Below are positions 479 to 21,058 of a stretch of DNA of 24,202 nt, piece after piece. Both the position numbers and the translations under genes were made by a program. Each line of letters begins with the position of its first letter. Position 1 is the first letter of the stretch. The stretch lies in IMG/VR virus record IMGVR_UViG_3300046514_000577, positions 1 through 24,202 of that record; one strand, 5' to 3'. This stretch comes from a virus. The notes below the pieces were generated by a model that saw only the letters and a program-made list of their open reading frames with translations, was not told the origin of the DNA and searched no databases.

Positions 479-2167
479 ATGGCCGCCGAGCACTCCGATA
501 ATTACGAGCTGCGGCAGCGCGCGGAGAACCGCATGGCGGGGCTGCGCTCTAACCGCTACTCGTGGTGGGTCCACGCCCAGGAGCTCGCCAACTACTTCCT
601 GCCCAGAAGATACAAGTGGATCATCACCCCGAACCAGGCAGCGCGCGGCTCGCCGATCAACCAGCACATCATCGATAGTACCGGCACGCTGGCGGCGCGC
701 ACGCTGGCCTCGGGGCTCCTGGCGGGGTTGTCCAATCCGAGCACGCCCTGGTTCAAGTTCATGATCGACGGCGAGGACGACGCCGGCTCCGACGTCGTGC
801 GCTGGCTCGCCGAGTGCGCTCGCCGGATGTACACGGTCTTTCAAGAAAGCAATTTCTACAACGCCATGGCGACGATGTATTTTGATTTGGTCATCTTTGG
901 GACGGCGGTTGTTATCATTTACGAAGATTTTGAGAACGTCATCCACTGCTACAACCCGTGCTTTGGCGAGTACTTTGTCGACAGCTTGAGCCGGTTTGAG
1001 AGCGTCATCCTCTACCGCGAGTTCGTCCTCACCATCGCCCAGATCGAGGACCAGTTCGATTACGAGAATATGTCGCCCGGGCTGCAGAAGCAGTTCGACA
1101 CCGGCGGTGCCTCGCTCACCCGCGAACAGGTCGTGATGTGCGCCATCGAGCCCAACCTCGAACCCTATTGCGGCGTCCCGAAAATGTTCAAGTTTCGCGA
1201 GGTCTACTGGGAGGCGGGGAGCGGCCGCGACTACATCCTGCGCAAGTGCGGCTACCACGATTTTCCCGCCGTGGTGCCGCGTTGGGATCTGACGGGCAAC
1301 GATCCTTACGGGCGCTCGCCAGCGATGGACGCGCTCGGCGACGTCAAGCAACTGCAGCAGGAAACCAAGCGCAAGGCGCAGGCCATCGACAAAATGGTCA
1401 ATCCGCCAATGACCGCCGACGTGCAGATGAAGAACCAGCCGGCGAGCCTCCTGCCGGGCGGTATCACCTATGTCAACGGGCTCAGCCGCGATCGGCCGGG
1501 GTTTACCACGGTCTACACCGTGATGCCGCCGATCGCCGAGATGAAGCAGGACATCCAGGAGGTCCAGGAGCGGATCAAGCGGACGTTCTTTAATAACCTC
1601 TTCACCGACATTTCCGATTTGCAGACCGTGCGCACCGCCGAGGAAATCATCGCCCGGAAAGAAGAAAAGCTGCTGATGCTGCCGACCATCAAGCGCATCG
1701 ACAACGAAGCGCTGGCGCGGGCGATCGAGCGCACCTGGGGCATCATGCTGCGGGGAGGTCTCCTCCCAAAGCCGCCGCCCGAAGCCGCCGGCAAGTTTGT
1801 CGCGATCAAATACACCTCGCCCTTTGCCATGGCGATGAAGGCGGCCGAGACCGGCGCGATCGAGCGCGCCATGCAGTTCGCCGGCAATCTGGTGGCGGTC
1901 GACCCGACCGTCATGGACAATTTCGACCTCGACAGCACCGCCCATGTCTATTCCGACATGATCGGCGCCGACCCGCGCATCCTGCGCAAGGAGAGCGACC
2001 GCGACCAGATCCGCGCGGCGCGGGCCAAGGCCAAGCAAACCGCCCAGGTCCAGCAGGAAACCGCAGCCGCGGTGCAGGGCGCCAACGTGCTGTCGCAAAC
2101 CGATGTCGGCGGCGGCCAGAACGCGCTCGAGCGGATGCTCGGCGGCGCCCCCGGAGGCAACGCATGA
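479..2167 (+). CDS. portal protein (podovirus head-tail connector)
   Basis: 562 residues, the usual size for T7 gp8-type connectors. It forms the dodecameric ring at the capsid vertex through which DNA is packaged and ejected. Recognition features are the N-terminal block RSNRYSWWVHAQELANYFLP near residues 23-42, the 'DSTGTLAARTLASGLLAGLSNPSTPWFKF' type block at about 66-94 (given here only as a description of the hallmark), and 'GRSPAMDALGDVKQLQQ' near 280. The C-terminal part after residue 500 is an Ala/Gln-rich helix and tail. This matches the head-tail connector family (Pfam Head-tail_con). The ATG at 479 lies just after the preceding stop, and the stop overlaps the next start as ATGA, so the gene is coupled to the Bbp19-like gene. 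Confidence 0.95.
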   Translation: MAAEHSDNYELRQRAENRMAGLRSNRYSWWVHAQELANYFLPRRYKWIITPNQAARGSPINQHIIDSTGTLAARTLASGLLAGLSNPSTPWFKFMIDGEDDAGSDVVRWLAECARRMYTVFQESNFYNAMATMYFDLVIFGTAVVIIYEDFENVIHCYNPCFGEYFVDSLSRFESVILYREFVLTIAQIEDQFDYENMSPGLQKQFDTGGASLTREQVVMCAIEPNLEPYCGVPKMFKFREVYWEAGSGRDYILRKCGYHDFPAVVPRWDLTGNDPYGRSPAMDALGDVKQLQQETKRKAQAIDKMVNPPMTADVQMKNQPASLLPGGITYVNGLSRDRPGFTTVYTVMPPIAEMKQDIQEVQERIKRTFFNNLFTDISDLQTVRTAEEIIARKEEKLLMLPTIKRIDNEALARAIERTWGIMLRGGLLPKPPPEAAGKFVAIKYTSPFAMAMKAAETGAIERAMQFAGNLVAVDPTVMDNFDLDSTAHVYSDMIGADPRILRKESDRDQIRAARAKAKQTAQVQQETAAAVQGANVLSQTDVGGGQNALERMLGGAPGGNA

Positions 2168-3253: not shown

Positions 3254-4297
3254 ATGGCTGTTATTGGATCAAATGCCCTGACCTACGCGGACTGGGCCAA
3301 GCGTTTGGACGACGACTACCGTACCGCCACGATCATCGAGCTGCTGTCGCAGACCAACGAGATCATGGACGACATGCTGCTGGTGGAGGGCAACCTCCCG
3401 ACCGGGCATAAGACCACGGTGCGGACGGGGCTGCCGTCGGCAACCTGGCGTCTGCTCAACTACGGTGTTCCAAACGCAAAGTCGACGACCGCGCAGATCG
3501 TCGATAGCTGCGGCAACCTCGAAACCTATGCGGTAATCGACAAGGATATCGCCGATCTCAACGGCAACACCGCCGAGTTCAGATTGAGTGAGGTGCGGGG
3601 CTTCCTCGAGGGGATGACCCAGCAGATGGCGTCGACCGTCGTTTACGGCAATGTCGGGGTTAATCCCGAACGCTTTCATGGGCTCGCGCCTCGATATAAC
3701 AGCGTCAATACCGCAACCGCGCAGACCGCCGCCAACGTCATCGACATGGGGGGAACGGCATCGACCAACACCTCGATGTGGATCGTCGTCTGGGGCAGCG
3801 ATACCTGTCACGGAATTTTCCCAAAAGGCAAGATCACCGGCCTGCAGCACCGCGACATGGGCGAATGGCCGGTCCTCGACAGCAACAACAACACCTACCA
3901 GGCCTACCGCGACCACTTCAAATGGGAGCTCGGCCTCACGGTGCGGGACTGGCGGTACGTCGTTCGGCTGGCGAACATCGACGTCACGCTACTCAACTCG
4001 GTCAATGCGGCGAACATCCTCAACGGCCTGGTGCGGGGATTGAGGCGTCTGCCGACGTCCAGTGCCCGGGCCTCGGCCGTGCAGGACTCGGATGCGCCGT
4101 CGGTCAGGGACTCGATGGGGCGGGTGGTTATTTACTGTAATCGCGTGGTGAGCACGTACCTCGATCTGCAGGCGATGAATAAAACCAATGTATTGCTACA
4201 GATGAGGGAGTTCGAAGGGCATGTAGTCACAACATTCCGTGGTATTCCTGTGCGCACGGTTGACGCTATACTTAACACCGAGGCACGTTTGGTGTAA
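3254..4297 (+). CDS. major capsid protein
   Basis: 347 residues. It forms the icosahedral shell. The opening block 'LTYADWAKRLD' followed by 'IIELLSQTNEIMDDMLLVEGN' and 'PSATWRLLNYG' is the hallmark start of BPP-1-like capsid proteins (the gp7-type family); BPP-1 capsid has an HK97-like fold of altered topology according to published cryo-EM work. The C-terminal 'FRGIPVRTVDAILNTEARLV' also fits this family. A good Shine-Dalgarno (GGAGA, 3242-3246) precedes the ATG. The last ~155 bases (about 4141-4297) are about 50% G+C by hand count and use AT-ending codons unlike the rest of the gene; the change comes just before the HNH gene. Confidence 0.93.
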   Translation: MAVIGSNALTYADWAKRLDDDYRTATIIELLSQTNEIMDDMLLVEGNLPTGHKTTVRTGLPSATWRLLNYGVPNAKSTTAQIVDSCGNLETYAVIDKDIADLNGNTAEFRLSEVRGFLEGMTQQMASTVVYGNVGVNPERFHGLAPRYNSVNTATAQTAANVIDMGGTASTNTSMWIVVWGSDTCHGIFPKGKITGLQHRDMGEWPVLDSNNNTYQAYRDHFKWELGLTVRDWRYVVRLANIDVTLLNSVNAANILNGLVRGLRRLPTSSARASAVQDSDAPSVRDSMGRVVIYCNRVVSTYLDLQAMNKTNVLLQMREFEGHVVTTFRGIPVRTVDAILNTEARLV

Positions 4298-4307
4298 AGT
4301 GACAATC

Positions 4308-4850
4308 ATGACGCACTTCAAAGAGCGGATGACGGTGGAGATAACTGCTGAAAGGCTTCGGTACGTTCTCCATTACGATCCGTCAAACGGAATGTTTCGC
4401 TGGCGCGTTGCCACAGGGCACCGAGTTGCTGCTGGGGACGCGGCGGGGGTGAGGTCGCGAGGCTATCTTCTGATCGGCGTTGACGGCGTCAAATACCGAG
4501 CCTCAAACCTTGCTTGGCTCTACGTCACTGGCGAGTGGCCAACAGCCGGGATCGACCACAAGGACCAAGATCCCACCAACGACCGTTGGGAAAATCTTAG
4601 GCTCGCCGATCAGTCGCAGAACAACGCAAACGCGCATGTTCGTAGTGACAACACGTCCGGCTTACGAGGCGTCAACTGGAGGCCGGATAAGCAGAAGTGG
4701 CGAGCTTACGTGAGCTTCCACGGCAAGCAGTTCTTCTGCGGCTACTTCGACACCATCGAAGAAGCCAAAGCCGCCCGCGATGCCAAAGCCTCACTTCTTC
4801 ATGGCGAGTTCGCTCGCTTCGACAACCTCTCTCAAGGAGTCATCCAATGA
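4308..4850 (+). CDS. HNH-AP2 homing endonuclease (copy 1)
   Basis: 180 residues from ATG 4308; ATG 4329 (residue 8) is an alternative start with AAGAG before it. Residues about 52-108 form an HNH domain: YLLIGVDGVKYRASNLAWLY, then GIDHKD with Asp83-His84 (expected metal ligand and general base, by analogy with I-HmuI) and WENLR with Asn96. Residues about 116-172 form an AP2-type DNA-binding domain (SGLRGVNWRPDKQKWRAYV ... CGYFDTIEEAKAARD). The usual His of the 'HRLAWLY' block is replaced by Ser65-Asn66 or thereabouts. Free-standing HNH-AP2 nucleases spread by cutting unoccupied sites in related phages. The gene lies 10 bases after the capsid stop, and its stop overlaps the cement-protein start (ATGA). 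Confidence 0.92.
   Translation: MTHFKERMTVEITAERLRYVLHYDPSNGMFRWRVATGHRVAAGDAAGVRSRGYLLIGVDGVKYRASNLAWLYVTGEWPTAGIDHKDQDPTNDRWENLRLADQSQNNANAHVRSDNTSGLRGVNWRPDKQKWRAYVSFHGKQFFCGYFDTIEEAKAARDAKASLLHGEFARFDNLSQGVIQ
4834..4839 (+). promoter_or_regulatory. ribosome binding site of the cement-protein gene, embedded in the HNH 3' end
   Basis: AAGGAG with 7 bases spacing to the ATG at 4847. It is translated as part of the endonuclease tail (…SQGVIQ), after the AP2 domain has ended. This suggests the native leader of the cement gene was captured into the endonuclease reading frame. Confidence 0.7.
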
Positions 4851-8653: not shown

Positions 8654-11059
8654 ATGGCTGATGCGTCAATCATCCAACCCTCATTCGCTTCGGGCGAAGT
8701 GTCGCCCGATCTCTACGGCCGTGTCGATCTGGCGAAGTTCCATGTCGGCGCGGCGACGATGCGCAACTTCTTCGTCAACTACAAAGGCGGTGCCTCGACC
8801 CGGCCGGGAACCCAGTTTATCGCCAACACCGGCACGGGGCCGATCCGGTTGCGGCGGTTTGTGTTCTCGGCGACCCAGACCTACATCCTGGTGTTCGGCG
8901 TCAACACCCTGCAGTTCGTGAAGAACCCGATGACGCCGGCCTACCCGAACTCGAGCAACTCGGGGTTCATCCTGTCGGGCGGTTCGCCTTATACGATCAC
9001 GACGCCCTACGGGTCGGCGGACTTGCCGGGTCTGAAGTTTTCGCAATCCGCCGACATCATGAACATCACTTGCTCCAATTACGCTCAACCCCGGGCGATC
9101 CTGTCGCGGTTCTCGGATACCAACTGGACGCTGACCACGCCCGTGACCGGCAGCTCGATAGCGGCGCCGCTGGGGCCGACGACATCGATCACCGGCCCGC
9201 CAAGCGGCTCGACCGATCCCCTGCAGACAACCTACCTCTACGCGGTGACCGCCGTTGGATCCGATGGCGAGGAAAGCAGCATCAGCGGGTTTGCTTACGT
9301 TCACGGCCTCGACATGGCCTCAACCTTGGGATCGGTCACCCTGACCTGGCCGTCGGTTGCCGCGGCGAGCTACTACAATGTGTATCGGGCAATCGCCACG
9401 TCGGGAAACTCGGTCCCCTCGCTCGGGCAGCAGCTAGGCTTTCTCGGGTTTTCTACTGGTCCGTCGTTTGTCGACAGCAACATCGTGCCCGATTTTACCC
9501 GGTCGCCACCGTCGCACAGCGATCCGTTCTCGCCCAGCCAGATCATCGCAATTAATCTTGCCCTGACCGGTTCGGGGTATGACATCGGCGCGACGACGAT
9601 CAATTCGCCCGGCAGCTCGTTTCTCATACCTATTTTCGACAGTCATACGGCCGGTTCCCCTGGTTCTATCGTTGCGGTGTCGATACTTAATCCCGGCGAG
9701 AACATAACAAATGGCGCGCCGATTACGGCGAGCGGCCCGACCGGAAGCGGCTTTGCGGCGACGGTAATCACTGGTCCCACCAACAACAACCCGGCGGTGT
9801 CCGCCTACTTCCAGCAACGGCTGATGCTCGCCAGCACGCCGAACAATCCGGTGACGCTGTGGGGAAGCCGGAACGGCTACTACAACAACTTCGACAAATC
9901 CAACCCGATCGTCGACAGCGACTCGATCGAATTCACCCTCGCCGTGCAGCAGGTCAATGCCATCGAGTGGATGGTCACGATGCCCGGCGGATTGGTGCTG
10001 TTCACCGATGCTGGCGTGCAGCAGCTGACCGGCGGCTCGCAGACCGCGACCAACCCGCTGGCGGTAACGCCGAGCTCGGCCGTCGTCGTGCCGCAGTCCT
10101 ATTATGGCGCGAACCAGTTCTGCGAGCCGATCGTTATCAATTACGACATCCTCTATGTCCAGTCGGAAGGCGCGACGGTCCGCGACCTGCAGTACAATTT
10201 CTTTGTTAATATCTACACCGGCACTGACATCACTCTTTTGTCGAGCCACCTGTTCTATCCGCATTCGATAGTCGACTGGGCCTATCAGGATGTGCCGTTC
10301 AAGTGCGTGTGGATCATCCGTGATGATGGCGTGCTGCTCTCGCTGACCTACCTGAAGGAGCAGGAAATAACCGGGTTTGCCCGTCACGATAGCCAGGGCG
10401 GTGTCTTTGAGAGCGTGGCAGTGATCCGCGAAGGCACCATGGATGCGGTCTATTTTGTCGTCAACCGCGGCGGCAATCGGTACATCGAGCGGCTGTGCGA
10501 TCGGCAATATCAGGGCGGTGTGTCGACGGCTTGGTGCCTCGACGCGGCGTTGTCGTACAGCGGAGCGCCGGTAACTGTCGTAAGCGGACTCGATCATCTT
10601 AACGGGCAGTCGGTCATGGCGCTGGCCGATGGTACGCCGCGCGGGCCATTCACCGTTGCGTCCGGTGCGATAACCCTCCCCGTTGCGGCGTCGAACATCG
10701 TCGCCGGGCTCTCGATCCAGGCTCAGCTGCAGACGCTCTATCTCGACGTCGGCGAAGGCGGCGGGTCGATCCAGGGCAAGCGCAAGAAGATCGCGGCGAT
10801 GTCGACGCGGGTGAAGGAGACGGCGGGTCTCAAGATCGGCACCACGTTCAACACGCTGACACCGTTTCGCCCGGGCGTTTCGTCGACCGACCCGGCGGCC
10901 TGGCCGGCGCCGCCGGGGCTGATCACCGGCGACATGCGGCTGGTGATGGATCCGGCCTATCAGGTCGCCGGCAGCGTCTGCATCCAGCAGGACGACCCGC
11001 TGCCCGCGACGGTGCTCGCGGTTATCCCCGAGATCAGCATTGGGGATGGACAGCGATGA
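8654..11059 (+). CDS. tail tubular protein B-like nozzle protein
   Basis: 801 residues, the size of T7 gp12-type nozzle proteins. The N-terminus (IQPSFASGEVSPDLYGRVDL, then AATMRNFFVNYKGGASTRPG) is the hallmark of this large phage family. Residues about 175-285 look like a fibronectin-III-type domain (TTYLYAVTAVGSDGEESSIS, then VTLTWPSVAAASYYNVYRA). Residues about 300-380 are a Gly-rich beta segment (LTGSGYDIGATTINSPGS ... SIVAVSILNPGENITNGAPI) of the same style as the insert in the adaptor protein. The conserved core resumes with QQRLMLASTPNNPVTLWGSR near 387-406. It would form the tail tip channel. The ATG at 8654 lacks a good Shine-Dalgarno, but the conserved start supports it. The stop overlaps the next start. 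Confidence 0.88.
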   Translation: MADASIIQPSFASGEVSPDLYGRVDLAKFHVGAATMRNFFVNYKGGASTRPGTQFIANTGTGPIRLRRFVFSATQTYILVFGVNTLQFVKNPMTPAYPNSSNSGFILSGGSPYTITTPYGSADLPGLKFSQSADIMNITCSNYAQPRAILSRFSDTNWTLTTPVTGSSIAAPLGPTTSITGPPSGSTDPLQTTYLYAVTAVGSDGEESSISGFAYVHGLDMASTLGSVTLTWPSVAAASYYNVYRAIATSGNSVPSLGQQLGFLGFSTGPSFVDSNIVPDFTRSPPSHSDPFSPSQIIAINLALTGSGYDIGATTINSPGSSFLIPIFDSHTAGSPGSIVAVSILNPGENITNGAPITASGPTGSGFAATVITGPTNNNPAVSAYFQQRLMLASTPNNPVTLWGSRNGYYNNFDKSNPIVDSDSIEFTLAVQQVNAIEWMVTMPGGLVLFTDAGVQQLTGGSQTATNPLAVTPSSAVVVPQSYYGANQFCEPIVINYDILYVQSEGATVRDLQYNFFVNIYTGTDITLLSSHLFYPHSIVDWAYQDVPFKCVWIIRDDGVLLSLTYLKEQEITGFARHDSQGGVFESVAVIREGTMDAVYFVVNRGGNRYIERLCDRQYQGGVSTAWCLDAALSYSGAPVTVVSGLDHLNGQSVMALADGTPRGPFTVASGAITLPVAASNIVAGLSIQAQLQTLYLDVGEGGGSIQGKRKKIAAMSTRVKETAGLKIGTTFNTLTPFRPGVSSTDPAAWPAPPGLITGDMRLVMDPAYQVAGSVCIQQDDPLPATVLAVIPEISIGDGQR

Positions 11060-11493
11060 GCGTCGATATCGTCCCAGCGGAGCCATTTCACGTGAAACAG
11101 GCGCTGGCCCATCTGCGTGAGTTTGACAAAGGCACTATCGAGAAATGCACCGCACCCGAAGCGATCCTGCTCGATGAGATCCGCTACGCGACGATGGCCT
11201 GCGCCGGGCTGATCGATGGCCAGGTCGCCTGTGTTTGGGGCATGCGGGCAAACGTTATTCTTAATGACAGCGCCTATCTGTGGATGCTGACGACGCAGCT
11301 GGTCGACGAGCACCCGTTTATCTTTGTCCGTCACTCGCAGCTGATGGCGGAGGAGATCCTCCAGCGGTTCTCCTTTATCCACGGCTGGGTGCTTGCCGAC
11401 AACCACCGCTCGATCAAATGGCTGCAGTGGCTCGGCGGCACGCTCGTGCCGGGCGTAGACGGCGTGTTGAACTTCACGATCGGGAGAGCGTGA
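11056..11493 (+). CDS. GNAT-fold phage protein, T7 gp13-like (internal virion protein A type)
   Basis: 145 residues. The layout matches the small acetyltransferase-fold family that includes T7 gp13 (DUF2833): an N-terminal IVPAEPFHVKQALAHLREFD, central 'GLIDGQVACVWGMRAN', then YLWMLTTQLVDEHPFIFVRH and SIKWLQWLGGTLVPGVDGVL. In T7 gp13 is needed for assembly of active particles. The protein keeps the general GNAT shape, but I see no clear acetyl-CoA binding loop (Q/RxxGxG/A), so enzymatic acetylation should not be assumed. The ATG overlaps the previous stop (ATGA), and the TGA overlaps the next ATG (TGATG). Confidence 0.8.
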   Translation: MSVDIVPAEPFHVKQALAHLREFDKGTIEKCTAPEAILLDEIRYATMACAGLIDGQVACVWGMRANVILNDSAYLWMLTTQLVDEHPFIFVRHSQLMAEEILQRFSFIHGWVLADNHRSIKWLQWLGGTLVPGVDGVLNFTIGRA

Positions 11494-12029
11494 TGGACCC
11501 GGTGACCATGGCCGTCGTCTCGCTCGGCGCGACCGCGCTCAGCGCCGGCGTCGGGGCGATCGGCGCGGAGAAGCAGGCCGAGGCGCAGCAGGCCAGCGCC
11601 AACTACCAGGCGCAGGTCGCCGAGAACAACGCCACCACTGCCCGGCAGAACGCGCAGTACGCGACGCAGGCCGCGGCGGTGAACGCACAGAACACGGATC
11701 TCCAGACACGACAGACGCTGGGGAAGGAGGTGGCGGGCGCCTCCGCCTCGGGGCTGGACCCGACCACCGGCTCGCCGGTGGATGTGCGGACGGGGACGGG
11801 GGAAGTCGGGCGCCTCACCTCGCTGGAGGATGTCCAGAAGGGCGCGCTGACGGCCTATGGCTACCAGACGCAGGCGACGGGTTATGTCGCGCAGGCGGGG
11901 CTTGACCGGGCGACGGGTGCTCGTGCCAAGCAGGCGGGGGACATCGGGGCGGTCTCGAGCATCCTCGGCGGGGCGTCGAGCTTCGCCAGCAAGTGGTCGG
12001 GGTTCCAGAACCAGGGAGTGTTTGGCTAG
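11493..12029 (+). CDS. internal virion protein B-like (T7 gp14-like)
   Basis: 178 residues from ATG 11493, with GGGAG (11482-11486) upstream; GTG 11490 is an alternative one codon earlier. The N-terminus (MDPVTMAVVSLGATALSAGV) is hydrophobic with small residues, followed by a long Ala/Gln-rich helix (AEAQQASANYQAQVAENNAT) likely to be coiled coil. The C-terminus is Gly/Ser-rich (SSILGGASSFASKWSGFQNQ). This pattern is seen in the ejection protein gp14-type family, which inserts in the outer membrane in T7. Assignment rests on composition, size and position between gp13-like and large internal proteins. Confidence 0.75.
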   Translation: MDPVTMAVVSLGATALSAGVGAIGAEKQAEAQQASANYQAQVAENNATTARQNAQYATQAAAVNAQNTDLQTRQTLGKEVAGASASGLDPTTGSPVDVRTGTGEVGRLTSLEDVQKGALTAYGYQTQATGYVAQAGLDRATGARAKQAGDIGAVSSILGGASSFASKWSGFQNQGVFG

Positions 12030-14021
12030 ATGCCGACCGTCCCCGCAGCTGGTTATGACACGGGTCCGGCAGCCCCGCCGCAGATCGACCCGCGGCTTCC
12101 GGTCGACGACTTCCTGCGGATCGACGCCAGGCCCGAGGCGTTTGGTGGCGCGGTTGGTACAGCGCTCACCCGCGCTGGGGGAGAACTTGAGAAGGGCGCG
12201 GGCGAGCTCGCGCAGGCCGCGATCAGCCGGCAGGACTTCTTTAATAAGGTCTCCTCCGATAACGCCAATACCGAGTTCATGAAGGAGAGCCACAAGCTGT
12301 TCTATGGCGACCCCGACGCCGGGGTTAATCCGGTCACTGGGCAAGCGAACAAACCCGGGTTCTTTGCGCTGAAGGGGCAGGATGCGATCGATGCCGGTCC
12401 TCCGAACGATGCGCTCGACAAACTCCAGCGCGACATCGCTGCCCGGCTCCCCAACGATCGGGCGCGGCTCGACTTCAACACCGAGACGCGCCGCCTGCGG
12501 ACGTATCAGGACGGTGAGATCAGCCGGCATTGGGACGAGCAGCTAAAGACCGCCGGAACCGCGACGCTGGCGGCTAAGGCCGATCTGCACGATCGGGACG
12601 CGGCGACTTACTTTAACGATCCGACGCGACTGGCGGACATATTGGAGACGGGCCGGCAGGACGCGACAAAGGCGGCGCAGATTGCCAACGGGATGAACGC
12701 CGACCCGGCGATCCTCGCCGATGCCCGCGCCAAGTCCGATGCAAAGGTCTACGGCTCGGCGTACCGGGCGGCGATCGCCGCAGGCCAACTGGATCGGGCT
12801 GATGCGCTAAAGAACGAAGCGATCGCCCGCGGCATCTGGACCGGCCAACAGGCCGACGATGCCGAGCGGCTCATAGAGCCAAAGCGCAACCAGCAGATCG
12901 GCAAAGATGCCGGGCGGGCGGGATTTACTGGTGGCGCGGGTGGCGGTGGGGGCGGGGCCGCACGGGCCACAGGGTTAGTTCCTTACACGCCATCGTCCGA
13001 CATGCTGAGCGGCACCGGCATGAGTGCCGACCAGTACGAGATCTTCCGCAGCCATGTCGCCGCCCGGGAAAGCGGCAGCTACGCCCAGCCGCCCAATGCC
13101 GGGGGGTACATGGGGCGGTATCAGATGGGGTCGAGCGAGATCAAGGATACCGCCAATCGTCTGGGTGTGCCGGCCCCGACCCAGCAGCAGTTCCTCAGTG
13201 ATCCCGCGCTCCAGGAACGCTTCTTCGAGAACTACACCCTCGACCACCACAACAGTTTGATGGCGCAGAGCACGCAATACCGTAACGCGCCACCGACCGA
13301 AAAGGCGGCGATCCTGATGGGCGCCCATCTCGGCGGGGTCCAGGGGGTGCAGAATTACCTAGCCGGCAAGAGCGACCCCGCCGACAGCAACGGGACACAT
13401 ATCAGCGATTACGTGACGAGTATGCGGCGGGCAATGGCTGGTGGCGCAGCACCTGCCGCCCAGCCGGCCACCGCCACACCGTCATCTGGCGCGATCGAGG
13501 TCTGGGGTGACAGTCTGGGTGTTGGATTGAACTCCATCCTTAAGACACCAGGCCACACCAAATCGGGGGCGCCGACAACAGACATTCTCGACGACATTAA
13601 AGCCCAGCCGGAGGACTCGTGGGCGGGCAAGACCGTGGTGCTCTCGTCCGGGTCTAACGGGCCTAAGATGAGTGAGGTCAGGCAAACCATAGAGTACCTC
13701 CAGGCTCACAAGGCCAATGTCGTCGTTGTTGGCTACGGCACTAAGGGACAGCTTCCGCAGCGGAATGCTGAACTTCAGCAGATGGCGGGGGAGTTGAAGG
13801 TTCCCGTCATCGCCGCGGAGCAAGTGGGCCCTGATGGCGTGCATCCTGGCGGACGGGGCTATCAGAGCATGGCCGACAAGATACGGGCGGCGGCGGGGGG
13901 TAGTCCCGCGACCGGCAAGCCGCAGACCGCGCCCGAGGGCACCATCATTCAGAGCCCCGGCAAACCGCCACTGCAGAATGTCGGCGGCAAGTGGGTGCCC
14001 TACTTGCCCGAGGGCGTCTGA
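12030..14021 (+). CDS. internal virion protein with lytic transglycosylase and SGNH hydrolase domains
   Basis: 663 residues. Residues 1-290 are mostly helical (ejection-protein scaffold), followed by a Gly-rich linker (about 299-310). Residues about 330-445 look like a lytic transglycosylase: catalytic-type Glu347 in HVAARESGSY, then GGYMGRYQMG (359-367), which matches the G-x-x-G-x-YQ signature. After an Ala/Pro linker (470-486), residues about 488-622 look like an SGNH/GDSL hydrolase: block I IEVWGDSLGVGL with Ser495, block III SSGSN with Asn543, and block V PDGVHPGG with Asp602 and His605. The first activity would cut peptidoglycan glycan strands during DNA entry; the second suggests removal of ester groups such as O-acetyl or lipid groups. 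All catalytic positions are seen in sequence; activities are inferred. AGGGAG at 12013-12018 precedes the ATG. Confidence 0.87.
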   Translation: MPTVPAAGYDTGPAAPPQIDPRLPVDDFLRIDARPEAFGGAVGTALTRAGGELEKGAGELAQAAISRQDFFNKVSSDNANTEFMKESHKLFYGDPDAGVNPVTGQANKPGFFALKGQDAIDAGPPNDALDKLQRDIAARLPNDRARLDFNTETRRLRTYQDGEISRHWDEQLKTAGTATLAAKADLHDRDAATYFNDPTRLADILETGRQDATKAAQIANGMNADPAILADARAKSDAKVYGSAYRAAIAAGQLDRADALKNEAIARGIWTGQQADDAERLIEPKRNQQIGKDAGRAGFTGGAGGGGGGAARATGLVPYTPSSDMLSGTGMSADQYEIFRSHVAARESGSYAQPPNAGGYMGRYQMGSSEIKDTANRLGVPAPTQQQFLSDPALQERFFENYTLDHHNSLMAQSTQYRNAPPTEKAAILMGAHLGGVQGVQNYLAGKSDPADSNGTHISDYVTSMRRAMAGGAAPAAQPATATPSSGAIEVWGDSLGVGLNSILKTPGHTKSGAPTTDILDDIKAQPEDSWAGKTVVLSSGSNGPKMSEVRQTIEYLQAHKANVVVVGYGTKGQLPQRNAELQQMAGELKVPVIAAEQVGPDGVHPGGRGYQSMADKIRAAAGGSPATGKPQTAPEGTIIQSPGKPPLQNVGGKWVPYLPEGV

Positions 14022-15712
14022 TGCCTGAGCTCGCCATCCCTGACGGCTACGCGCTGACGCCGCCGCCCGGCGCGACACCGCCTGCGGCCGGCGCAACACC
14101 AACACCGGAAGAACCGACAGCGGCACAACTGGCGCAAGCAGAGCCGCCGATAGACGGCAGCGCCCCTGCGCAACCGGTCGGGGCAACGCCCGCGGCAACC
14201 CCGCCGCCCGCCACGCCACCGCCCGGCCCACCGCCGATGCCGAGCCGCGAGCAAATCCTCGGGCGCATCCCGACGACCAACCCGAGGACAGGGCTACCTC
14301 TAACCCCGGAGCAGACCGACATCGCCCAGCGGGAAGCGATGCGGCTTTACAACGAGCATATGCAGCGCACCGAGGAGACCCGCGCTCGGTTGGAGAACAG
14401 CCTGAAGAACGGTGCTCAGATGCTCGCCGACGGGCGCGACTTTTCGTGGAACGAAGCCAACGTCCGCAACCTGTTGCCGCCCGAGAAGGCCGATCCGATC
14501 GTCGATATCCTCAAGGAAGCGACGATCAACGGGGCCGCGAAACATCAGGTCAGCGGCATGACCCCGGAAGAGATCACCGGCGAGCAAGCCCGGCTGAAAG
14601 CGTCCGTGGAGACCGGGCCGCCCACCGGTTATATCCAGCGCCGCCAGCAGCAGGTCGCTTTTGACGCCGCGGTCACCAAGCGTAATGAGCAGCTCTTCGG
14701 CGACAAGGCCGATCCGGCCAATTACGTCGCCCTCAACAGCCCGCGCATCGCCGAGCTGCAAACCGCGGCCAACGCCAAGGGCGCGTCGCCGCAGGCCTTC
14801 TCCGACTACGCCATCGCTTCGCTCGCCGAGCAGGCTCGGATCGGATTGCGGCCCGAAGACCAGCATGTGCTGACCACGCACATGGCACAGACGCTGAAGG
14901 AGAACATCGCCTCTAACCCGGAGAACGCCCCGGCGACCATTGCGGGACTGCAGAGGCAAACGGGGCAGGCTTGGCCGCATGTGTGGAGCGACCTGGTGAC
15001 CCAAGGCAAGCTGCCGACCGGTTATCAGGTGGTCGGGCAACTGGCCGATTACGATCCTGGCAGCGCCTCCATTCTGGCCCGCGCGGAAGGGGCGAACGCC
15101 AAGGACGACAAAGCCTTTGAGGCGAGCATCAGCCGCAAGGTTGGTGCCGGCGCTCAGACCATCAAGCAAGTCATCGCCGAGCGGGTCGATGATCCGAACG
15201 GGGCGCTGCAGAAATACGAGCACTCGATGCGCATGAGCAGCGCAAGCGAGAGCCAGGTCACCGCCATTCATTCGGCGATCGAGCACCTCGCGGCCGGGTT
15301 CGTGCTGTTCCACCAGGAAGACCCGAGCACAGCCGCCGACCATGCGGTCACTGCCGTCACCGGGCATTTTCAGTTCATGCCCAACGGCGGCGCCCGGGTG
15401 CCGACGGACCGCTACGCCGACGTCACCAGCAACGCGCAGGACAAGATCAATGGGCTATCGCTCGCCAATGTCCGGGTGCCGGAAGTCTATGGCAGAGGCA
15501 CCGCCGCGCCATCGCCGCAGAGTTATATCGATGAACTAAAGGCGGGTACGGGAGTCTGGTTCACCGATCTCAAGGCTGATCGCGTGACACTGATGGATAA
15601 GGGGGGCGGCGTCGTCAAGGACCAGAACGGTCAGCCCATCTCCATCCTGTTCTCACAACCCGGCACGACGCCGCCGTACCAATTCACACCACCGACCGTG
15701 CCGCCGCTCTGA
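14021..15712 (+). CDS. large internal virion protein (ejection protein)
   Basis: 563 residues from ATG 14021 (overlapping the previous TGA). Residues 1-75 are Pro/Ala/Thr-rich and disordered. The rest is mainly helical, with many Ala/Gln/Glu-rich segments (RLYNEHMQRTEETRARLENS, FDAAVTKRNEQLFGDKADPA). The C-terminal 100 residues contain more beta-like sequence (GTGVWFTDLKADRVTLMDKG) and a proline-rich end. There is no enzyme motif. Position between the transglycosylase protein and two further internal proteins suggests the T7 gp15-like slot, i.e. part of the ejected core. No named family is recognised with confidence. Confidence 0.75.
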   Translation: MPELAIPDGYALTPPPGATPPAAGATPTPEEPTAAQLAQAEPPIDGSAPAQPVGATPAATPPPATPPPGPPPMPSREQILGRIPTTNPRTGLPLTPEQTDIAQREAMRLYNEHMQRTEETRARLENSLKNGAQMLADGRDFSWNEANVRNLLPPEKADPIVDILKEATINGAAKHQVSGMTPEEITGEQARLKASVETGPPTGYIQRRQQQVAFDAAVTKRNEQLFGDKADPANYVALNSPRIAELQTAANAKGASPQAFSDYAIASLAEQARIGLRPEDQHVLTTHMAQTLKENIASNPENAPATIAGLQRQTGQAWPHVWSDLVTQGKLPTGYQVVGQLADYDPGSASILARAEGANAKDDKAFEASISRKVGAGAQTIKQVIAERVDDPNGALQKYEHSMRMSSASESQVTAIHSAIEHLAAGFVLFHQEDPSTAADHAVTAVTGHFQFMPNGGARVPTDRYADVTSNAQDKINGLSLANVRVPEVYGRGTAAPSPQSYIDELKAGTGVWFTDLKADRVTLMDKGGGVVKDQNGQPISILFSQPGTTPPYQFTPPTVPPL

Positions 15713-17880: not shown

Positions 17881-20567
17881 TGGCACAGGGACGCAGCTTC
17901 GAGCAGTGCAGCGCCGCGGTCGAGGCCGCCGGCAAGATCGGCAAGAAGGCGGCGCTCGAGCTGCTGAGCGAGGTCTACAGCCGCGCCGAGGCGATGCAAG
18001 CCACCGGGCGGGCGGACCCATACATGATGGCGGTCAGCGACCTGGCCGATGCGAAGCTGGCCGAGGCGCAGAGGGCCAAGCTCTATGCATTGCACAACGC
18101 GGCGGCGCGAACCCAGTGGAGGGGGCGCGCCGAGGCCGAGGCTGAAGGCCGCATCGCACCGACCGTTGGCGCCCGCCTCAATCCGCTGCGGCAACGCCTG
18201 ACCTTGGCAGACGGCCTGGCCTCAGTCCTCAGCCCGATACAAGCGGCCAAGCGTCTCGACACTGTCGAAGGGTTGTGGAACTTCCTGTCGAGGCAATTCG
18301 TCTCGCCGATGGGCAACAAGCTACGCCAGTTAGGCATTTCCAAAGCGGCGCTCAGTGGTGCCATAGACAGTGGGACGAGGGAAGCGCTGTGGCGCCTCAA
18401 CGGCGGCACGCCCGACCCGAGGATCACAATCTCGAAAGAGGAGCAAGCCTTCGCCGAGGCTCTGCATGCCCCGCTGGAGCTGCTCAAGGAACGGCTGAAC
18501 GACTACGGTGCCCATATCGGCGACGCGGTCGACTACGTAACCCACACCAGCTGGGACTCGCGGCAATTACGCGCCGCTGCCGGGAAAGGTGCCGAGCGCG
18601 AGGCGGCCTACCAGAAGTGGAAGGCCGACGATGTTCCGCGCATGGGGGAGAAGACCTTCGACGATATCCTCCCGCGCGAGGGTGAGACGGCGGAAGAGGC
18701 GAAGGAGCGTTTTATCCGCTCGATCTACGATGCCACCGAGTCGGGGATGCATCTCGGTAGTCGCAGCATGGCCGGGCTCGACGCTGTCGGCGACTACATC
18801 CCGGCGGCCTATGAGGGCACGCAGAACCTCGCCCGCCAAGCCTCGCATCAGCGTGTCGTCTATTGGAAAAATGCCGAGGCCTGGGGCCAGCATATGGAGC
18901 AGTACGGCGGCGGCCGAACTCTCTACGAGAATGTGATGCGTACCCTCGACGGGGGGGCGCGGCGCATCGCCCTGATGGAGTATCTCGGCATCAACGTCGA
19001 GGGCAATTTTGAGACGATCGTCCAGCGGATGCTCGAAGAGAACCGCACCTCGGACGAACTGGGGCGGCTGCAGCGCCAGATCGAGGGCGTGCGCAACCAA
19101 CTCGGCCGTCTCACCGGGCGGCTCAATCGCCCCATCAGCGAGGATGCCGGCCAACTCACCAACCAATTGATGTCGTTCGAGGCGGTCACCCATTTGGGCG
19201 GCGTCTCGTGGACCCATGCGATGGCCGCGCCGGCGACCATCACCTCGGAGATGGTGCATCACGGCGTGGGCCGGATACAGACCATCGCCTACATGCTCGC
19301 CTCGGTCGGGCGCGGCACCGCCGAACGCCAGGAAGTCCTGGCCGATGCCGGCGCCTATGCCCACGGTTACGCGAACGCCGTGCAGCGCGCGGGCACGCCG
19401 AGAGACGCCTGGCGGCGCGATGGCTTCCCCGGCTTTGTGTCGTGGGTCTCGGCACATTTTATGAACACGACCGGCTTACCGCGCCTGCTCGACGCGTTTC
19501 AGGCCAACGCCGTCAAGGGGGTGCTGATGGCGCGGTTGGGACGCGCGATCGACCAGGAGTTCGCCGAAATCGAGCCGCATCAGCAGGCGGCGCTCAGCGC
19601 CTACGGGATCACCCCGGAGGAGTGGTCGCTGTTGCGCTCGTCGACCGACCCCTCAATGGTCGAAGGCAATCGCTGGCTGACGCCGAGCGATGCCGTCAAC
19701 AGCGACCCGGCAGCGACAGAGGCATTGTTGCGCAGTCGCGGGCAACTCGGCGCTAACGCCGCCCAGGCGACGATCGACAGCGCGGTGCGCAAGTTTCAGT
19801 ACGAGCTCGGCGACAAGCTGGGAATGTACCTCAACGATGCCGCTGATCACGCTGTGGTGCGCCCCGGATCGCGCGAGCAGGGCATCGTTCTCGGGGCGGC
19901 CCAGCCCGGCACGGCCGAGTATTTCATGCGGCGCGCCGTCGGCCAGTTCAAGATGTGGCCGCTCGCAGCGACTACGCAGATCCTCGGTCGTGACATCGCC
20001 CGCTCGCTTTCCACCAAGGAGATGTTGAGCAACATCGGCATTATGGTGGCGCTCTCGACCGTCGGCGGCGCGCTGCGCATGGCGGTCAACGATGCAGCGG
20101 TCGGACGCCCGCAGCAGGATTATACCAAGCCGCTGACGTTGCTTGCGGCTTTTGCTCAGGGCGGCGGGCTCGGCATCTACAGCGATTTTCTGTTTGGTGA
20201 GACCAACCGCATGGGCGGCGGGATCGTCTCGACCGTGGCCGGCCCGCTGGTCGGCGAAGCTGACCGGTTCATCAACATCTTTTCTCGCTTTAAGGCGGAT
20301 CTGCGCGAAGACCCGGGTAAAGCAATGCAACACATGTGGCCCGACCTGGTGCACTGGGGATTAGTGCAGCACATCCCGTTTGCCAACTTGATCTATTTGA
20401 AGGGCACGCTCGATTATTTATTGTGGTATCATATTTTTGAAGCTTCGTCGCCTGGTTGGTGGGAAAGAGTCAATAGAAGGCTACAAAAAGAACAAGGAAG
20501 GACAATGGTTGGTTATAGACCTGGTGGTGGAATACCATACACACCTTTTGGGATCGGTGCCCGATGA
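17880..20567 (+). CDS. large internal virion protein, T7 gp16-like C-terminal part
   Basis: 895 residues. The N-terminal and central regions are helical without enzyme motifs. The C-terminal third carries features common to gp16-type ejection proteins: VGQFKMWPLAATTQILGRDI near residues 688-708, a membrane-like IGIMVALSTVGGALRMAVN near 719-738, and a terminal block PGWWERVNRRLQ followed by GGGIPYTPFGIG. In T7 gp16 the transglycosylase is part of the same protein; here it is encoded separately at 12030. The last ~150 bases (20411-20560) are about 43% G+C by hand count and rich in AT-ending codons, in contrast to the rest of the gene; the shift runs up to the start of the second HNH gene. Confidence 0.82.
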   Translation: MAQGRSFEQCSAAVEAAGKIGKKAALELLSEVYSRAEAMQATGRADPYMMAVSDLADAKLAEAQRAKLYALHNAAARTQWRGRAEAEAEGRIAPTVGARLNPLRQRLTLADGLASVLSPIQAAKRLDTVEGLWNFLSRQFVSPMGNKLRQLGISKAALSGAIDSGTREALWRLNGGTPDPRITISKEEQAFAEALHAPLELLKERLNDYGAHIGDAVDYVTHTSWDSRQLRAAAGKGAEREAAYQKWKADDVPRMGEKTFDDILPREGETAEEAKERFIRSIYDATESGMHLGSRSMAGLDAVGDYIPAAYEGTQNLARQASHQRVVYWKNAEAWGQHMEQYGGGRTLYENVMRTLDGGARRIALMEYLGINVEGNFETIVQRMLEENRTSDELGRLQRQIEGVRNQLGRLTGRLNRPISEDAGQLTNQLMSFEAVTHLGGVSWTHAMAAPATITSEMVHHGVGRIQTIAYMLASVGRGTAERQEVLADAGAYAHGYANAVQRAGTPRDAWRRDGFPGFVSWVSAHFMNTTGLPRLLDAFQANAVKGVLMARLGRAIDQEFAEIEPHQQAALSAYGITPEEWSLLRSSTDPSMVEGNRWLTPSDAVNSDPAATEALLRSRGQLGANAAQATIDSAVRKFQYELGDKLGMYLNDAADHAVVRPGSREQGIVLGAAQPGTAEYFMRRAVGQFKMWPLAATTQILGRDIARSLSTKEMLSNIGIMVALSTVGGALRMAVNDAAVGRPQQDYTKPLTLLAAFAQGGGLGIYSDFLFGETNRMGGGIVSTVAGPLVGEADRFINIFSRFKADLREDPGKAMQHMWPDLVHWGLVQHIPFANLIYLKGTLDYLLWYHIFEASSPGWWERVNRRLQKEQGRTMVGYRPGGGIPYTPFGIGAR

Positions 20568-21058
20568 TAGAACTTACGGTCCTCCGACTTCAGCAAGTTC
20601 TTGAGTACGCCCCAACGTCTGGCGAATGGCACTGGAAGCGGCGCTCAGATGTGCGCGGTGGCTGGAATTCCAAATGTGCGGGCAAGATCGCGGGGCGCCT
20701 CGACAGCGATGGTTATCGGCAAATTGCGGTCGATGGACGACGGTATTCTGCGGCGCGACTTGCATGGTTATACATGACCGGCGAATGGCCTCCCGATGAA
20801 ATCGACCATAAGAACCGGCGCCGTGACGATGACAGATGGGAAAATCTGCGGGCGGTAACTCATGTGCAGAACATGGCGAACGTTGGGCTCCCATCCACAA
20901 ACACTTCCGGGATCAAAGGTGTCTATTGGAATAAGAAGCTCGGTAAATGGCAGGCGGCTTTAGCCCGCCAACATCTCGGAGTGTTCGATGACATCAACGA
21001 AGCCGCTGCTGCTTATCAGGCTGCTGCGGCACGGCGAGTGCCGCTGACTTACCGCTGA
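20564..21058 (+). CDS. HNH-AP2 homing endonuclease (copy 2)
   Basis: 164 residues. The HNH domain (about residues 48-104) shows RYSAARLAWLYMTGEWP, EIDHKN with Asp81-His82 and DDRWENLR with Asn94; the AP2-like DNA-binding part (about 114-158) is TSGIKGVYWNKKLGKWQAAL, then a shortened GVFDDINEAAAAYQAAA. Its layout is the same as the copy at 4308, with shared blocks AWLY.TGEWP, IDHK, DRWENLR and NTSG; the two are diverged paralogues or independent arrivals of the same family. The usual His of the HRLAWLY block is Ala here. The ATG overlaps the stop of the internal protein gene (ATGA), and the 3' end overlaps the convergent gene on the other strand by 10 bases. Confidence 0.9.
   Translation: MIELTVLRLQQVLEYAPTSGEWHWKRRSDVRGGWNSKCAGKIAGRLDSDGYRQIAVDGRRYSAARLAWLYMTGEWPPDEIDHKNRRRDDDRWENLRAVTHVQNMANVGLPSTNTSGIKGVYWNKKLGKWQAALARQHLGVFDDINEAAAAYQAAAARRVPLTYR
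21026..21044. terminator. candidate hairpin between convergent operons
   Basis: GCGGCAC and GTGCCGC form a perfect 7-bp stem around a 5-base loop. It lies in the 3' end of the HNH gene and 4 bases after the stop of the minus-strand gene ending at 21049. No T-tract follows on either strand, so it is at best a weak or assisted terminator; it could also be a chance palindrome of a GC-rich coding region. Confidence 0.3.

Follow-up and report, generated by a model that had tools for sequence, protein, structure and literature searches.

The window, meaning the whole stretch of DNA analyzed here, comprises 24,202 nucleotides (positions 1 to 24,202 of the IMG/VR record IMGVR_UViG_3300046514_000577) and contains a phage structural operon (Table 1). 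The portal, capsid, nozzle, and gp13- and gp14-like genes lie upstream, and genes for two large proteins of no clear family and for a phrog_684 virion protein lie downstream, of a gene encoding a 663-residue protein, which thus occupies the position of gp15 in an operon of the T7 kind. The order is that of T7-type ejection genes, in which this gene follows the gp13- and gp14-like genes and precedes the other large internal proteins. Its reading frame is unbroken, opens with an ATG immediately 3′ of the gp14-like stop codon, and closes with a TGA that overlaps the downstream start codon. A gene-calling artifact was considered and ruled out by the continuous open reading frame, the stop/start overlap downstream, and a codon bias that is highest in the frame used. 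Elsewhere in the window, two open reading frames on the plus strand resemble HNH-type homing endonucleases by eye (RYSAARLAWLYMTGEWP..IDHK), one just 3′ of the capsid gene (4239–4850) and the other at the end of the structural operon (20564–21058).

Table 1. Structural genes of the window and subdivisions of the 663-residue protein, in window positions
Feature	Position	Strand	Basis or remark
Portal/head-to-tail connector	479–2167	+	E = 1.2e-129
Major capsid protein	3254–4297	+	Pfam GP7, E = 1.6e-131
Tail nozzle-type protein	8654–11059	+	phrog_376
gp13-like internal virion protein	11056–11493	+	phrog_308, E = 2e-19
gp14-like internal virion protein	11469–12029	+	phrog_418, E = 3.4e-21
663-aa protein of the internal virion type, LT-like plus SGNH domain	12030–14021	+	Touches both neighboring genes
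N-terminal helical part, residues 1–315	12030–12974	+	phrog_10475, phrog_1044; predicted helices
LT-like domain, residues 321–462	12990–13415	+	phrog_5867 match, phage alignment
Codon of catalytic Glu347	13068–13070	+	LT-like domain
Codons of GYMGRYQM	13104–13127	+	LT-like domain
Ala/Pro-rich linker, residues 471–487	13440–13490	+	Sequence; low model confidence
SGNH hydrolase domain, residues 488–622	13491–13895	+	Pfam, relatives' profile, predicted fold
Codon of Ser495	13512–13514	+	SGNH domain
Codon of Gly513	13566–13568	+	SGNH domain
Codon of Asn543	13656–13658	+	SGNH domain
Codon of Asp602	13833–13835	+	SGNH domain
Codon of His605	13842–13844	+	SGNH domain
C-terminal tail, residues 626–663 (PEGTIIQSPGKPPLQNVGGKWVPY)	13905–14018	+	Two strands predicted
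Next operon gene, 563 aa, from ATG overlapping the preceding stop (position 14,021)	14021–15712	+	Weak phrog_1044 match
Large internal protein without assigned family, 722 aa	15712–17880	+	ORF list and family searches
Virion structural protein, 895 aa	17880–20567	+	phrog_684, E = 4.6e-101

Two domains joined in one internal virion-type protein

The N-terminal part of the protein is related to the phage virion families phrog_10475 and phrog_1044, which bear the label 'endolysin', and to the gp15-slot proteins of related podoviruses; family searches with the 663-residue protein returned no match to a gp15 or gp16 family. From this similarity and from the operon slot, we infer that the protein is incorporated into the virion of a T7-like podovirus, and it is probably ejected into the host at entry. 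An AlphaFold model of the whole protein, predicted from the single sequence, reached a pLDDT of 50, and a fold search with it was uninformative.

Judged by sequence, residues 321–462 are a glycan-cutting domain of the lytic transglycosylase (LT) or lysozyme type. The domain matches phrog_5867 (E = 1.8e-14) and has a 47%-identical relative on another podovirus contig (L001). Checking the translation placed Glu347 and GYMGRYQM (residues 359–366) where the first-pass annotation had put them, and in an alignment of nine phage proteins (the window protein and eight others) Glu347, G359, G362, Q365, and G367 are invariant; a catalytic Glu is followed by a G-x-x-G-x-x-Q motif. The profile of this alignment weakly matches Rpf domains (E = 0.028), exactly over the catalytic Glu and GY-G-x-Q. 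Resuscitation-promoting factors are lysozyme-fold peptidoglycan enzymes. Residues 311–470 match no transglycosylase model of Pfam or NCBIfam. Over the length that their contigs cover, the related podovirus loci (L001 and L003–L013) show no SGNH domain.

Between the two domains lies what had been described as a disordered linker, a segment of low confidence in the whole-protein model; the description needs the correction that the linker is short, about 17–20 residues, and rich in Ala and Pro. Beyond it, the SGNH residues that had been named earlier (GDSL at 493–496 with Ser495, Asn543, Asp602, and His605) are all in place, and the Gly of block II is Gly513. Block I is a GDS with Ser495 as nucleophile, the oxyanion hole draws on Gly513 and on block III (Gly541-Ser-Asn543), and block V is a DxxH that reads Asp602-Gly-Val-His605. 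None of the 40 representative relatives departs from Ser495, Gly513, Asn543, Asp602, or His605, and the G and N of block III and the D and H of block V are likewise invariant among them.

Such a residue motif was not by itself counted as proof, and a query-free profile was built from 41 relatives, members that had originally been gathered using the query. Among 253 reading frames of the window, it found only the 12030–14021 frame (E = 2.6e-15). Against Pfam, the domain alone matches Lipase_GDSL at E = 1e-3, under the gathering cut-off; of the 42 sequences in the family alignment, 40 match Lipase_GDSL_2 (best E = 3.5e-9). The sequence profile of the domain also extends to OatA-type acyltransferases (5ug1, E = 9.5e-4).

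The predicted structure is of the same kind. An AlphaFold model of the domain, computed on the 42-sequence alignment (pLDDT 87.6, pTM 0.84), has the alpha/beta/alpha fold, and SGNH enzymes lead its fold search, as the first-pass annotation had anticipated. In the model the first helix begins at Ser495 and the DxxH precedes the last helix, which are places in the fold and not distances. The best Foldseek match in the PDB is Staphylococcus aureus OatA (6wn9, E = 1.7e-5), and the other best matches are PatB of Neisseria and Campylobacter, the carbohydrate esterases 2w9x and 2vpt, and the Campylobacter jejuni GDSL esterase Cj0610c. Together, the phrog_5867 match, the SGNH profile, and the predicted fold bear out the claim that the LT-like and SGNH domains are combined in one protein of the internal virion type. 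A narrower assignment does not hold. Motif I of the Ape enzymes is defined as GDS(H/F) (PMC1199599), and the window domain has GDSL, so that the motif I of Ape1 and Ape2/PatB is absent; DGVH does conform to the Ape motif VII, Dx(V/T)H, a motif common to many SGNH families. Lacking GDS(H/F), the domain is not classed as an Ape member.

As a separate observation, codon adaptation to the phage is 0.54 in the SGNH segment and 0.65–0.71 in the rest of the gene, as in recently acquired DNA.

Relatives of the SGNH domain in phages and prophages

A direct tblastn of the SGNH domain against phages and plasmids gave no significant match, although the phage set contained a true relative, prophage BK070131; a lack of matches in such searches is thus weak evidence. 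Scans of genome contigs found nothing, and a second DNA motif scan gave 0 matches. A DNA pattern derived from the spacing of the SGNH motifs picked up short phage proteins of about 133 residues that stand alone, and in an alignment scan at least 187 viral contigs encode SGNH relatives, as a tblastn with the SGNH domain of the window protein confirmed. L019–L098 are a widespread standalone phage family whose members start with MLECLIIGDSI. About 40 distinct standalone relatives, devoid of a signal peptide, are encoded near replication and redoxin genes, their neighbors encoding DNA polymerase, exonuclease, AhpC/redoxin, and carboxymuconolactone decarboxylase-like proteins. These settings suggest that the wider SGNH family is also used in roles away from the cell wall. 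In the kuttervirus Salmonella phage SeF6a, a separate SGNH gene (L110, 4941–5366), annotated as a putative lipase, lies between two baseplate genes and encodes a signal-like N-terminus.

Other relatives reside in virion proteins. Near the top of a search of viral structure predictions stands a 1196-residue protein of the cyanophage S-H38, a Synechococcus phage (QPB07895.1; TM 0.74, 21% identity), which joins an SGNH domain (575–712) to an M15 peptidase and is encoded in a baseplate-region gene slot. The comparable protein of S-WAM1 has an LT-like domain and an amidase, and that of S-H68 an LT-like domain and M23. With S-H38 as a bridge, the search reached the tape-measure protein of BK070131, whose SGNH domain is 35% identical to that of the window (pairwise E = 2e-12) and is followed by a GH24 Phage_lysozyme domain (PF00959) above the Pfam cut-off. 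Ten relatives of this tape-measure protein are found in IMG/VR (L112–L121). In three of them (L117, L119, and L120), the lysozyme slot holds a different domain, 24–28% identical in a forced alignment, with identities elsewhere of 92–98% in the SGNH domain, 87% over the N-terminal 500 residues, and 90–95% in the C-terminal tail. Thus, a single tape-measure family keeps its putative esterase and swaps its muramidase. A search with the alternative segment of L117 matched a lytic transglycosylase of solved structure (9udh, E = 6e-16); the domain in the three proteins matches neither Pfam SLT nor Phage_lysozyme2. This is a natural exchange of a GH24 lysozyme (L112–L116, L118, and L121) for an LT-like domain in tape-measure proteins that are otherwise about 90% identical.

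In the tree, the SGNH domains associated with virions cluster together and separately from those of the standalone proteins, with 100/99 support on long branches whose bootstrap is not fully settled. The exact fusion of the window, LT-like plus SGNH in this arrangement, was seen on one contig only, with no second copy found. Related pairings recur in unrelated phages, so that the combination looks like a reusable tool for cell entry.

The hosts of these prophages can be approached through DNA uptake sequences. GGCTRCCTGAA, which we take to be the core of the Eikenella/Simonsiella-type uptake sequence, occurs in 9–21 copies per prophage record, in 4 copies in the record of L121, and in 0 copies in controls; the Neisseria-type GCCGTCTGAA has 33 copies in the record of L121 versus 0 in the control. 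Across the uptake-sequence types, the counts in controls were 0–1 overall. BK070131 itself has 55% G+C and 20 sequences of the Eikenella/Simonsiella type (for the dialects, see PMC3630211), and together with its relatives spans 54–57% G+C. Given this richness, BK070131 and the prophages L112–L121 most likely live in Neisseriaceae, and the label of BK070131, Helicobacter pametensis, looks wrong, with a host in Neisseriaceae more likely. Peptidoglycan O-acetylation is well studied in this family (PMC6174289; PMC7083599). The window contains none of the Eikenella/Simonsiella- or Neisseria-type uptake sequences, and the relatives of its portal are spread over many proteobacterial phages.

A proposed division of labor and its precedents

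Lytic transglycosylases form 1,6-anhydroMurNAc and use the C6 hydroxyl to do so. Many bacteria O-acetylate their peptidoglycan, which shields it from lysozyme and also stops their own lytic transglycosylases. LTs require a free MurNAc C6-OH (PMC5077204; PMC1199599), and O-acetylation at C6 blocks LTs and lysozymes alike (PMC5077204; PMC1199599; PMC6174289). Because LTs need this hydroxyl and the same acetyl group blocks lysozymes, an esterase that removed it would unblock the substrate of its partner. In keeping with such a partnership, the Neisseria de-O-acetylase Ape1 needs the LT LtgA for optimal function (PMC7083599). In the window protein, the LT-like domain would cut the MurNAc-GlcNAc bond of peptidoglycan via Glu347. 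The SGNH domain, held on its short linker, would be a serine esterase with Ser495, His605, and Asp602 as its triad and Ser495, Gly513, and Asn543 lining the oxyanion hole; it would strip the C6-O-acetyl group from MurNAc, its most likely substrate, and so free the local glycan for the LT-like partner as the sacculus is being breached by the ejection proteins. We regard it as moderately probable that a tethered SGNH esterase removes the MurNAc C6-O-acetyl for an adjoining LT-like glycan cutter in this virion-associated, probably ejected protein.

The first-pass annotation had proposed just such a deacetylase clearing the path for a transglycosylase. What favors the proposal is that relatives of the SGNH domain recur in other virion proteins next to three kinds of peptidoglycan enzyme (GH24 lysozyme, LT-like, and M15 peptidase), in part in Neisseriaceae-type prophages; the activity and the substrate retain the status of predictions. 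O-acetyl removal ahead of the glycan cutter appears the best-supported reading. Several observations weigh against it: GDSL stands in place of the Ape motif GDS(H/F), the next closest phage relatives are the standalone proteins from replication and redoxin neighborhoods, the related podovirus loci show no SGNH domain within their contigs, and the exact fusion is known from a single contig. A further counterweight is that OatA and PatB are transferases, and likeness in fold would not separate an esterase from a transferase, nor peptidoglycan from another acetylated glycan.

This last point leads to the alternative that the SGNH domain acts on esters of another envelope glycan, such as O-antigen, capsule, or exopolysaccharide, in the manner of SGNH tailspikes. 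SGNH deacetylases on tail fibers and spikes have been described (PMC9569702; PMC11058221), deacetylase tailspikes have been reviewed (PMC5380687), and carbohydrate esterases are among the fold matches; yet the SGNH domain of the window is part of an internal protein in the gp15 slot, with an LT-like domain for its neighbor, and not of an exposed fiber, and its closest relatives adjoin lysozyme, LT-like, or M15 domains, which makes this alternative unlikely. The same peptidoglycan-enzyme neighbors, and a compact domain of about 135 residues that is closer in the fold search to OatA and PatB than to lipases, render decidedly unlikely a lipase or phospholipase that alters membrane lipids so that the ejection channel can cross the outer or inner membrane, even though Pfam names the family a GDSL lipase/acylhydrolase, the TAP thioesterase family is among the profile matches, and T7-type ejection proteins cross both membranes. 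Activity in the host cytosol after ejection, modeled on the standalone proteins of replication modules described above, is improbable, as the virion domains split from these in the tree and the SeF6a relative has a signal-like start and a baseplate setting. Finally, the single contig and the foreign-like codon adaptation of the SGNH segment could point to a noncatalytic remnant that serves binding or structure, or to an accident of assembly, which we consider highly improbable: every catalytic and oxyanion residue is retained, the reading frame continues through the segment with a codon bias like that of coding DNA, and an assembly chimera is less likely given the overlap with the downstream gene and the related fusions in prophages and in phage S-H38.

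Broadening the MurNAc deacetylation reading, we tentatively entertain, as a proposition just short of evenly balanced, a recurring and swappable virion module in phages whose Gram-negative hosts O-acetylate their peptidoglycan: a tethered SGNH domain would deacetylate MurNAc and thereby let the muramidase next to it, whether LT or lysozyme, open the wall at entry; the window protein would be its podovirus form and the Neisseriaceae tape-measure proteins its long-tailed form. To our knowledge, how phages with muramidase entry enzymes pass O-acetylated walls has been little studied. If the proposition is true, fusing a deacetylase to the muramidase used for entry would let phages counter peptidoglycan O-acetylation directly, the 663-residue protein is a candidate two-step enzyme for such walls, and the swap of lysozyme and LT-like domains beside a constant SGNH domain makes the mechanism testable in identified prophages.

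In a 2017 review, all dual-domain virion lysins then known came from phages of Gram-positive bacteria (PMC5380687). The 663-residue protein is a candidate for this class, its two domains being recognized by sequence and one of them also by fold. The pairing had been thought undescribed. In the literature searched, whose coverage is incomplete, we found no description of an LT or lysozyme joined to SGNH in a virion protein, but unannotated muramidase relatives exist and a near precedent has been published in phage phi11. The peptidoglycan of its host, Staphylococcus, is O-acetylated by OatA. Its Gp44 (Tal) is likewise a virion protein with a peptidoglycan-degrading domain and a C-terminal SGNH/GDSL domain (PMC4876445; PMC5380687), but it belongs to a siphovirus tail tip and a Gram-positive host, its first domain is an endopeptidase instead of an LT, and its SGNH domain is putative (PMC4876445). 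The Neisseriaceae-type tape-measure proteins (BK070131; L112–L121) carry the same SGNH group at 35% identity with a GH24 lysozyme or LT-like domain, a pairing of which no description was found in the literature searched; there, the SGNH domain precedes the muramidase, whereas in the window it follows, and the setting is a long-tailed prophage as opposed to a podovirus. S-H38 QPB07895.1, a large protein of the virion type, combines an SGNH domain of this group with a peptidase for peptidoglycan, M15 where the window has the LT-like domain. In Neisseria, Ape1 and LtgA act jointly, as de-O-acetylase and LT, on the same MurNAc (PMC7083599), but as two separate host proteins in a complex, with other SGNH motifs in Ape1, where the window protein is a single fusion. 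With T7 gp14, gp15, and gp16, finally, the window shares the operon order and an LT-type domain within the ejection set; in T7 that domain sits in gp16, whereas here it belongs to the gp15-slot protein, with an SGNH domain added.
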